The notes under the pieces: model-generated
What the model saw: the letters and a program-made list of their open reading frames with translations, nothing else
Told to the model about the DNA's origin: nothing
Databases searched by the model: none
Program-made: the position numbers and the translations under genes
DNA from: Streptomyces venezuelae
Lineage (GTDB): Bacteria; Actinomycetota; Actinomycetes; Streptomycetales; Streptomycetaceae
Direction: 5' to 3'
Assembly: GCF_008642315.1 (NCBI RefSeq)
Contig: NZ_CP029192.1
Location: 2,170,001 to 2,234,000, forward strand
Length of the DNA: 64,000 nt
Shown: positions 19,216 through 46,370 of the stretch, in pieces
How positions within the stretch are numbered: position 1 is the first letter of the stretch
Layout of the letters: the number at the start of each line of letters is the position of its first letter

Positions 19216-22200
19216 GTGTTCGAGGGTACGCATTCCGCTGGTCACATGTTGTCGGCGGCGCAGCAGCGCGTCTGGTTCGCTCAGGAACTGGCTCCGAACA
19301 GCCTCCTGTACAACATCAACGGCTATGTGGAGCTTCACGGGCCGTTGGACCGGGAGCAGTTCGAGAAGGCGCTGCGGCAGGCCACCGACGAGGCCGATGC
19401 CCTTCACGTCACCTTCGGCGAGACGGGCGGCGAACCCTGGCAGGCCGTGCGCGCCGAGCGCGACTGGCCCCTGCCCTTCGTGGACGTGTCCGCCGAGGAC
19501 GACCCGCACGCGGCCGCCCTCGCGGTGATGCAGGAGGACCTCGACCGGCCCTTCGACCTGCGCGAGGGCCCGCTCTTCGTGCACATGCTGTTCCGTCTCG
19601 CCCCGGACCGCCACTACTGGTACACCCGCGTCCACCACATCGTCTGCGATGCCTTCGGGTTCAGTCTTCTCGTGCAGCGCGTCGCCGACTGCTACACGGA
19701 ACGCGTGTCGGAAGAGGGCGGCGACGCCGTAACCCCCACCCCGTTCTCCTCCCTTGCCGAGTTCACCGACGAACACGTGACCTACGCGGAGAGCGAGCGG
19801 AGCGAACGGGACCGTGCCTACTGGCTCGACCGCTTCGGCGACGACTCCGAGCTCCTCAACCTCCCCGACCGAGCCACCGGCCTGTGGGGCGAGTCCCCGC
19901 GGTACGAAAGCCGCCTGGAGCCCGAGTACTTCGACGGGATCAAGCGTCTCGCCCGGCAGGCCCGGTCCACCTGGCAGGTCACCCTGACCGCCGCCGCCAC
20001 CGCGTATCTGCGCCACTTCACCCGCACCGACGACGTCGTGCTCGGCTTCCCCGTCACCGGGCGGCTCACCCCGGTCACCAAGACGACGCCCGGCATGACC
20101 TCGAACGTGCTGCCACTGCGCGTGGCCGTCGACCCGGCGCTCACCTTCACCGAACTGCAGCGCGCCGTCGGCCAGGAGATGCGCGGCCTCCTGCGCCACC
20201 AGCGCTACCGCGGCGAGGACCTGCGCAAGGACCTGGGCCTCGGCGGCTTCTCCCGCCGGATGTTCGGTCCTTCCATCAACTTCCTGCCGCTGGAGGAAGG
20301 GCTGCGGTTCGGCCCGTGCACGGGCGCGGCGCACGGCATGCCCAGCGGTCCCGTCGACGACATGGTCATCGTCTTCGAGGGCGGCACCGGCGACAACGGC
20401 ATCGGTGTGCGCATCGCGGGCAACACAGCCGCGTACGGCGAGCAGGACATCGCCGACCACGGGCGCCGCTTCGTCGCCTATCTGCGGGCGCTGACCGCGG
20501 AGCCCGACCGGCCCATCGGCACCGTCGACGTCATGGACCCGCAGGAACGCCACCGGGTCCTCACCGAGTGGAACGGCACCGCGTCGGACCTCGACGCGGG
20601 CACGCTCCCCGCGTGGTTCGAGGCCCGCGCCCACCGCACGCCCGACGCGGTGGCGGTCGTGTACGAGGACACCACGCTCACCTACCGCGAGCTCAACACC
20701 TGGGCCAACCGGCTCGCCCACCGGCTGATCGCGCGCGGCGCCGGTCCTGAGAGCCTGGTCGGCCTGGTCCTGCCCCGCTCCGTCGAGCTGGTCGTCGCCG
20801 TGCTCGCCGTCCTCAAGAGCGGCGCCGGGTATCTCCCCGTCGACCCGGACGCCCCGGCGGCCCGCCGCGCGACCGTCCTCGACGAGGCGCGGCCGGTGTT
20901 CGTCCTGGACGGCACCGACGCCGTGCACGACCTCGGGGACGGGCCCGCGCACGACCCCGCGGACGCCGACCGCTCCGCCCCGCTGAGCGCCGACCACCCC
21001 GCGTACGTCATCTTCACGTCGGGATCGACGGGCCGGCCCAAGGGCGTCGTCGTCACCCACCGCAACGTCACCCGGCTGTTCTCCGCCACCGAGGAGCAGT
21101 ACGGCTTCGGGGCCGACGACGTGTGGACGCTGTTCCACTCGTACGCCTTCGACTTCTCGGTGTGGGAGCTGTGGGGCGCCCTGCTGTACGGCGGGCGGCT
21201 CGTCGTGGTGCCGCACGCGGTGTCCCGCTCCCCCGAAGCGTTCCTCGACCTCCTCGCCGAGCAGCGCGTCACCGTCCTCAACCAGACCCCGTCGGCGTTC
21301 TACCAGCTCATCCAGGCCGACCAGCGCCGCCCCGGCACCGAACTCGCCCTGCGCCACGTCGTGTTCGGCGGCGAGGCGCTGGTGCCGGGGCGGCTCGCCG
21401 ACTGGTACGAGCGGCACGCCGACGACGCCCCGACGCTCGTCAACATGTACGGCATCACCGAGACGACCGTGCACGTCACCCAGCAGGCCCTGACCCGCGA
21501 GAGCGCGGCCGCCGACAGCGGGAGCACCGTCGGCCCCGCCCTGCCCGACCTGCGCGCCTACGTCCTGGACGACCGGCTCCGCCCGGCGCCGCCCGGCGCC
21601 GTCGGAGAGCTGTACGTGGCGGGCGCCGGTCTGGCCCGCGGCTATCTGGGCCGCGCGGGCCTGACCGCCGAACGCTTCGTCGCCTGCCCCTTCGGCGGGC
21701 CCGGCGAGCGCATGTACCGCACCGGGGACCTGGCCCGCTGGACGGCCGCAGGACTGCTCTCCTACGAGGGCCGCGCCGACCAGCAGGTGAAGATCCGCGG
21801 CTTCCGCATCGAGCTCGGCGAGATCGAGGCGGTGCTCGACCGGCACCCGGGGGTGGCCGAGGTCGCGGTCGTCGTCCGCGAGGACCGACCCGGCGACAAG
21901 CGGCTCGTGGCCTACGCGGTGCCGCGCGGCACCGGCCCCGACGCCGCCGCGCTGCGGGCGTACGCGAGCGAGGCGCTGCCCTCGTACATGGTCCCGGCGG
22001 CCGTGGTGGTCCTGGACGCGCTGCCGTTGACGGTCAACGGCAAGCTGGACCGGCGCGCCCTGCCCGCGCCCCGGTTCGACGGCGGCAGCGGCCGGGCGCC
22101 GCGCGACGCCCGCGAGGAGACCCTGTGCCGGCTGTTCGCCGAGGTCCTCGGCGTCGAACAGGTCGGCATCGACGACAACTTCTTCGACCTGGGCGGCCAC

Positions 22201-45020: not shown

Positions 45021-46370
45021 TCAGAGCGCGGCGGACTGTTCGCGCACGAAGGCGGCGAGGCGCTCGACGCCGAGCGTGATCTCCGCGGGAGACAGATAGC
45101 TGAAGGAAAGCCGGATCTGGTGCCGCGGCTTTCCGTCGCCGTAGAAGTGGTGCATGGGTGTCCACAGCACCTTGTGGCGGCGCGCGGAGTCCTCGAGAAG
45201 GGCGTCGTCGACGGCGAACGGAACGGTGAGGACGACGAAGAATCCACCGCCCGGCGTGTTCCAGGTCACGCGCGGTTCCGCGTCCTGGGGGAAATTGCGG
45301 GCCAGTTCGGCCAGGACGTGCCGCAGGTTGCCCTGGTAGAGCTCCGTCTCGCGGACATTGGCCGCGCGCAGGCTGCAGCCGTTGGCCACGAGCTTGCCGC
45401 CGATGACGGCCTGCGCGACGGGTGAGGTGTTCACCGTGAGCATGCTCTTGATCTTCGCCAGCTCGTCGGCGAGGAGCACGGTGCCGTCGGCGCCGGCCCG
45501 GCCCACCCGCTGGTCGGCGACCACGAACCCGATGCGCGCGCCCGGCAGCCCGGTCTTGGCGTACGAGCCGAGGTAGACGACGCGGCGCCGGTCGCCGTCG
45601 AGCGACTTGAGCGTGGGCAGCGGCTCGCTGCCGGGGGCGTGGAAGAGCCCGTAGGGGTTGTCCTCGAGGAGGAGGAAGTCGTGCTCCTCGGCGAGCCGGA
45701 TGAGCGCTTCCCGGGTCCGTGTCCCGAGGGTGACGCCGGACGGGTTGGCGAAGTCGGCCACCACGTAGCAGGCGCGCGGCCGGAGCCCGGCGGCCCTCGC
45801 CTCGGTCACGACCCGTACGAGGTCGTCGAGGTCGATGCCCTCGGCGCTCTCCCGTACGGGCAGCACCCGCATGTCCGCGAGTTCGGCCGCGCCGGTCGCG
45901 CCCACGTAGCAGGGCATCGGGGCGATCAGCACGTCCTTGTCGTCCCTGCGCAGCGCGCGCAGGGTGAGGAACATCGCCTCCTGGCAGCCGACGGTCACCA
46001 CGATGCTCTCCGGGTCGACGTCGATGCCCTCGTCGACGGAGAGGTTCTCGGCGATCAGGTCGTGGATGATGCCTTTGGTCCGCCCGTACTGCAGGATCGT
46101 GCGCCGCACCCGGGCCTCGTCGCCGCCGTGCACGGACCGCAGGTGGTCCTCGAAGACGCGGAGGTGGCGGTGGACGTCCTCGGTGTCGAAGAATCCCTCG
46201 TACGGCCGGCCCGCGGCCATGGAGAGGGCCTCGGGAAAGCGCTGGGAGATCTCGTTGAGGAAGTTCATCGACTCGATGACGGGCGAGGCGAGAGAGCCGT
46301 GCATCTCCAGCGCGTCGAGCTCGAAACGCTCGTGGCCGCCGACCGGCCCCCTGCTGATTTCTGCGTTCAT
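45021..46370 (-). CDS. hpgT: 4-hydroxyphenylglycine aminotransferase
   Basis: A 449-residue fold-type I PLP aminotransferase that converts 4-hydroxybenzoylformate to L-4-hydroxyphenylglycine, the last Hpg step. Seen are ILQYGRTKGIIHDLIAENL near the N-terminus, VTVGCQEAMFLTLRAL, DFANPSGVTLG, LLEDNPYGLF and the lysine motif LGSYAKTGLPGARIGFV. The architecture resembles 2-aminoadipate/MocR-type aminotransferases without the DNA-binding part, as known for HpgT proteins. ATG 46370 is chosen by homology; the frame stays open to 46445. First gene of the Hpg supply operon and convergent with the NRPS genes. Confidence 0.9.
   Translation of the reverse strand: MNAEISRGPVGGHERFELDALEMHGSLASPVIESMNFLNEISQRFPEALSMAAGRPYEGFFDTEDVHRHLRVFEDHLRSVHGGDEARVRRTILQYGRTKGIIHDLIAENLSVDEGIDVDPESIVVTVGCQEAMFLTLRALRRDDKDVLIAPMPCYVGATGAAELADMRVLPVRESAEGIDLDDLVRVVTEARAAGLRPRACYVVADFANPSGVTLGTRTREALIRLAEEHDFLLLEDNPYGLFHAPGSEPLPTLKSLDGDRRRVVYLGSYAKTGLPGARIGFVVADQRVGRAGADGTVLLADELAKIKSMLTVNTSPVAQAVIGGKLVANGCSLRAANVRETELYQGNLRHVLAELARNFPQDAEPRVTWNTPGGGFFVVLTVPFAVDDALLEDSARRHKVLWTPMHHFYGDGKPRHQIRLSFSYLSPAEITLGVERLAAFVREQSAAL

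Follow-up and report, generated by a model that had tools for sequence, protein, structure and literature searches.

Cystargamides B-D of Streptomyces sp. JMS132 are lipopeptides of the order epoxyacyl-Thr-Phe-Glu-5-OH-Trp-D-Hpg-Gly (Hpg, 4-hydroxyphenylglycine), closed by an ester between the Thr oxygen and Gly. As set out in the available portion of PMC9136287, the ctm cluster proposed to make them comprises two nonribosomal peptide synthetases (NRPSs), CtmE with five condensation-adenylation-carrier (C-A-PCP) modules and an epimerization (E) domain and CtmF with C-A-PCP and a thioesterase (TE), together with an MbtH protein, a 449-aa Orf5 called hypothetical, CtmG, CtmH and CtmI for Hpg supply, and CcsB as the next gene. 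The cystargamide of Kitasatospora cystarginea is likewise described, in the parts available of PMC4365757 and PMC5398305, as a six-residue Thr lactone with 5-OH-Trp and Hpg, a likeness at the product level. Here we analyze a compact cluster at 19216-46445 of a 64,000-nucleotide window of the Streptomyces venezuelae genome (contig NZ_CP029192.1, positions 2,170,001 to 2,234,000), in which NRPS1, NRPS2, an MbtH-like protein and a 460-aa protein are followed by hmo, hmaS and hpgT on the opposite strand. We assign it to the cystargamide (ctm) type with a probability of roughly 90%.

Other actinomycete lipopeptides resemble this family less closely. The calcium-dependent antibiotic (CDA), daptomycin and others are alike as lipopeptides with Hpg or kynurenine (Kyn) residues, and CDA shares the trans-2,3-epoxyacyl feature with the cystargamides (PMC9136287), but CDA- and daptomycin-type peptides have more residues in another order, and daptomycin initiates via fatty acyl-AMP ligase and acyl carrier protein genes (PMC9113097, in the text available).

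Gene content and distribution

The genome is a single contig of 8.94 Mb, with a G+C content of about 67-76% per 2-kb step. The genes of the cluster (T, thiolation domain; TDO, tryptophan 2,3-dioxygenase; IDO, indoleamine 2,3-dioxygenase; HPPD, 4-hydroxyphenylpyruvate dioxygenase) and one flanking gene are as follows.

19216-36735, + strand: NRPS1 (CtmE-like), five C-A-T modules followed by E, from motifs and pocket codes; predicted substrates Thr, Leu/Phe, Glu, 5-OH-Trp and Hpg (epimerised), with substrates 2-4 following the cystargamide order by analogy
36732-40907, + strand: NRPS2 (CtmF-like), C-A-T-TE, from Pfam, the TE motif GWSFG and the pocket code; predicted to add Gly and to carry out ring-closing release
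40950-41177, + strand: MbtH-like protein (Orf4 of ctm), Pfam PF03621
41228-42610, + strand: Orf5-like protein of 460 aa, a heme oxygenase with the TDO/MarE/PrnB/IDO fold, from weak TDO matches and model and fold comparison; proposed Trp 5-hydroxylase
42721-43827, - strand: hmo, 4-hydroxymandelate oxidase (CtmG), best solved match 5zzp, a 4-hydroxymandelate oxidase
43824-44939, - strand: hmaS, 4-hydroxymandelate synthase (CtmH), of the HPPD/HmaS family, called HmaS over HPPD by context
45021-46445, - strand: hpgT, aminotransferase (CtmI), class I/II, placed as in ctm
46849-48012, + strand: ccsB, flanking and non-biosynthetic, TIGR03144 over cut-off; also adjoins ctm (PMC9136287)

The ccsB gene is the cluster's neighbor in three relatives as well. 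Motifs and Pfam place six modules over the two NRPS genes, module 5 carrying the E domain and a TE standing at the end, confirming what a sequence-only reading had proposed. That reading had also held that no known Hpg peptide matches, and this claim falls: the ctm cluster has the same two NRPSs (C-A-T five times and E; C-A-T-TE), with E within the Hpg module, and the same MbtH, Orf5, hmo, hmaS and hpgT homologs in identical order beside ccsB. The reading had named a published cluster sharing both its module order and its tailoring genes as what would overturn it, and ctm as described in PMC9136287 largely is such a cluster. The Hpg supply genes are present, as had been noted, but their placing at the other end of the locus was loosely put, for they directly follow NRPS2, mbtH and the Orf5-like gene, on the opposite strand.

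For NRPS1, the GTG at 19216 is a plausible start, the protein of the CBMA152 relative beginning at a matching V-F-G-G; the alternative is an ATG at 19246. HmaS exceeds the cut-off of the NCBIfam 4HPPD model (344 vs 277 bits), and among solved structures it is closest to 7yvv (under the title 4-hydroxyphenylpyruvate dioxygenase) and to 2r5v (PCZA361.1), which we take to be a hydroxymandelate synthase; its name is based on context and 2r5v, not on a family model. For HpgT, the evidence reaches the aminotransferase family only.

The lead to cystargamide was an Orf5 homolog (P0014) from K. cystarginea, the source of cystargamide, which also has a CtmB homolog (P0170). A search of 394 family genomes with P0014 returned three at E 1e-100 or better, namely the S. 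venezuelae genome itself, G691 and G516, of which G691 is probably, by position, Streptomyces TSRI0107 itself. Among 392 congeners searched with Orf5 (the own genome included, four first-look candidates scored per genome), none of the other 391 had a match above 47% identity. The cluster is present in Streptomyces ISL-98, CBMA152 and TSRI0107, and partly in S. coffeae (L083). NRPS1 is 74-86% identical to its counterparts in three relatives over 5779-5840 aa, and TSRI0107, whose proteins are the best match for seven of the nine ctm genes with a listed match in Table 2 of PMC9136287, shares 71-80% identity with the window across seven genes of the cluster.

Pocket codes and the epoxyacyl genes

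Pocket codes were read off the aligned A domains, giving DFWNVGMVH (A1), DAWLLGAVC (A2), DMTKLAVVS (A3), DAGMIGAVC (A4), DIYHLGLLC (A5) and DIVQLGLVW (A6). A1 and A5 match the codes DFWNVGMVHK (Thr) and DIYHLGLLCK (Hpg) printed for another cluster in Table 7 of PMC9113097, as far as that source is available. A6 is close to the Gly type, with DILQLGLVW in four of the five relatives in which A6 was compared, and the assignment of Thr, Hpg and Gly to modules 1, 5 and 6 stands. No printed match for the A3 and A4 codes was found in literature code searches. The start of the first C domain differs from those of C2-C5, and the earlier proposal of an acylating-type C domain ahead of a Thr-loading first module is supported. 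Since C6 has a 12-residue N-terminal motif that we take to be typical of C domains placed after an E domain, and a single E domain is present, residue 5 alone should be of D configuration. The macrolactone between the Thr oxygen and Gly that had been suggested is likely, by analogy with the Thr-O-Gly ester of the cystargamides. Set against the order Thr-Phe-Glu-5-OH-Trp-Hpg-Gly, the codes of the window match at Thr and Hpg and come near at Gly, and A2 is unlike the Phe-like code of relatives.

The codes of A1, A3, A4 and A5 are identical or nearly so across all nine NRPS1 proteins compared; S. coffeae was excluded from the A1-A4 comparison because its contig stops inside NRPS1. A4 begins with DAC in TSRI0107 and G516 and with DAG in the window, ISL-98 and CBMA152. 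A2 reads DAWTVAAVC in TSRI0107 and G516, close to the Phe code, and DAWLLGAVC in seven of the nine distinct NRPS1 proteins (the window, ISL-98, CBMA152 and four further orthologs), a count biased by the use of the window's own A2 as the search query, with the best 120 of 815 matches listed.

A second difference concerns the acyl group. The ctm cluster has ctmA-D beside the NRPS genes for the epoxyacyl group, and TSRI0107 and G516 both have ctmB and ctmC upstream of NRPS1, whereas ctmB and ctmC are absent from the 64-kb window and from the 60 kb around the ISL-98 and CBMA152 clusters (ctmA and ctmD were not searched in the window, and the TSRI0107 copies were identified by eye). A whole-genome search of five genomes found ctmB itself only in TSRI0107; the best other matches were of 32% identity in the own genome and 30% in ISL-98, with short stretches of 35% in CBMA152 and 30% in S. 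coffeae. Because ctmB and ctmC were not found and the module-2 pocket is changed, we class the cluster as a ctm-type variant rather than a plain ctm cluster, and what remains novel is probably a variant defined by these two differences. The two changes coincide in the clusters with flanks examined (3/3 without ctmB vs 2/2 with it). The first C domain of the window is 76-89% identical to those of CBMA152 and ISL-98, both without ctmB, and 66% identical to that of TSRI0107. In a tree built from NRPS2, Orf5 and the C-terminal part of NRPS1, a node with 77% support separates the window, ISL-98 and CBMA152 from TSRI0107, G516 and S. coffeae.

In our reading, the epoxyacyl genes were lost and module 2 was altered in the group to which the window belongs. 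We tentatively propose, at somewhat less than even odds, a derived cystargamide branch in which, along with that gene loss, starter C domain and module 2 changed together, making a non-epoxide acyl-Thr-Leu-Glu-5-OH-Trp-D-Hpg-Gly lactone with the help of a TDO-fold Trp 5-hydroxylase. The foremost alternative is that the product is a known cystargamide, its epoxyacyl group supplied by unrelated or distant genes and its DAWLLGAVC pocket still loading Phe. The code alone cannot tell Leu from Phe at position 2, and the similar DAWCIGAVCK, listed among Leu-type codes, can also accommodate Phe (PMC12283262, in the part available); the genome-wide search, moreover, covered ctmB and not ctmA, ctmC or ctmD. 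We nevertheless consider this alternative unlikely, in view of the missing ctmB ortholog, the pocket change that accompanies that absence and the affinity of the first C domain to ctmB-less relatives.

Several observations weigh against the assignment itself or against a simple history of the branch. Given the lack of ctmB in the own genome and an A2 code that is not the Phe-like one of ctmB-keeping relatives, the cluster may make something other than a cystargamide, and literature code searches found DMTKLAVVS nowhere in print as a Glu code. The ctm assignment was made from genome reading; in the portion of PMC9136287 available, its authors did no deletion and ask for one. The partial relative S. 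coffeae has DMYSQALVY at A6, and the 19 kb examined there gave a short hmo match only and no hmaS match. S. coffeae falls with G516 in the tree although it too lacks ctmB; the gene would then have been lost more than once. Finally, one protein (P0163) mixes the two states, with DAWLLGAVC at A2 and DACMIGAVC at A4, showing that the A2 and A4 changes are not fully linked.

The Orf5-like heme enzyme

In structure comparison, the predicted model of the Orf5-like protein matches MarE, TDO, PrnB and IDO and shows the heme-dependent aromatic oxygenase (HDAO) fold. Its residues H422, H270 and R342 align with TDO residues and are invariant in 25 aligned sequences (of 43 collected); around a GTGG loop (433-436), the model is of low confidence. 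Since no other ctm gene accounts for the hydroxyl of 5-OH-Trp, the enzyme is, by elimination from the ctm gene list, probably the Trp 5-hydroxylase. Heme-dependent Trp hydroxylases of bacteria were reportedly described by Shi et al. in 2023, and the enzyme class as such is already a described one. These hydroxylases, which are not classed within the HDAO family (PMC12921851), and BifE are alike in being heme enzymes that act on Trp for an NRPS product, but BifE hydroxylates C4 (PMC13285481, as available) rather than the C5 proposed for Orf5. Separately, distant Orf5 homologs (37-41% identity; L027, L028, L030, L034, L035) have other NRPS genes less than 10 kb away, and this enzyme type may therefore serve several peptide pathways.

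With the TDO-aligned heme ligand, distal His, Arg and GTGG loop all kept, Orf5 could instead be a true dioxygenase making N-formylkynurenine, with a kynurenine-type residue 4. This is quite improbable, as A4 (DAGMIGAVC) is unlike the printed Kyn codes DAWTTTGVGK/AK (PMC9113097, text available), and the same source led us to reject kynurenine at residue 2 as well; clusters of the same layout are, in addition, assigned to 5-OH-Trp peptides, with no other gene for that hydroxyl (PMC9136287). That the cluster belongs to a wholly unknown hexapeptide family, as first thought, is very unlikely: the code searches turned up no printed counterpart for three of the six pockets, but layout and tailoring genes fully match the ctm cluster. 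Streptogramin B and actinomycin types have Thr first and an aryl starter; they were set aside because their ends differ from Hpg-Gly and because no aryl-acid ligase turned up among the genes scanned.

Neighboring genes and proposed pathway

Upstream of the cluster, at 10061-14423 and 5-9 kb from NRPS1, a second alaS adjoins a second tsaD, with better-scoring copies of both elsewhere in the genome. That they are duplicated targets conferring self-resistance to the peptide, as their number and position might suggest, is hardly credible and was rejected, since the second copies are absent in all four other cluster-bearing genomes, each with one alaS and one full-length tsaD match, and tsaD2 orthologs (at least 78% identity) were found in 39 of the 150 congeners sampled (counting the own genome), against Orf5 matches above 47% in 0 of 391 others. 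The two genes are not part of the cluster. Six of the 39 tsaD2 orthologs carry internal stops, alaS2 is not always beside tsaD2, and a third, partial alaS-like stretch with one 475-aa open frame lies elsewhere in the genome (C1:8666638-8667792).

Directly upstream of NRPS1 (15608-18999), a gene for a PIG-L protein of 768 aa, whose N-terminus is twin-arginine-like, overlaps an Acyl_transf_3 gene; PIG-L was not found near the relatives' clusters, where Acyl_transf_3 was not searched. Beyond ccsB (48167-50388), a TetR-type regulator is divergent from an adjoining FAD-binding aromatic hydroxylase, a pair not found adjoining the relatives' clusters in a search of those regions. Farther out, a minus-strand open reading frame of 581 aa (52063-53808) unusually pairs sigma-70 region 4 with a TnsA-like endonuclease N-terminal domain, and a spore photoproduct lyase family gene adjoins DUF3140 and Hva1_TUDOR genes at 6011-7905.

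In the proposed pathway, the first C domain would condense a fatty acyl group onto L-Thr, and modules 2-6 would add a hydrophobic residue (Phe in the cystargamides, here perhaps Leu), Glu, 5-hydroxy-Trp, Hpg and Gly, the Hpg of module 5 being epimerised to D and the TE forming the ester between the Thr hydroxyl and Gly. Hmo, HmaS and HpgT would provide the Hpg, and the Orf5-like heme enzyme would most likely hydroxylate Trp at C5. The scheme draws on computed features, namely the order of the domains, the pocket codes, which genes are present and in what order, their conservation and the predicted HDAO fold of Orf5; substrates 2-4, the acyl type, the closing of the ring and the part played by the hydroxylase are inferred. 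The acyl group is probably not a 2,3-epoxide, since the window belongs to the group without ctmB.

In place of the claimed novelty, the cluster is tied to a lipopeptide family that is already described. If the variant is real, a natural cystargamide analog without the epoxide should exist, with a calculated [M+H]+ of ~906.46 for the Leu/decanoyl form or ~940.45 for Phe/decanoyl, vs 954.42 for cystargamide B. The 'hypothetical' Orf5 of ctm is predicted to be the Trp 5-hydroxylase of that cluster, and the groups with and without ctmB would show how a starter C domain and a Phe-type A pocket have changed in nature.

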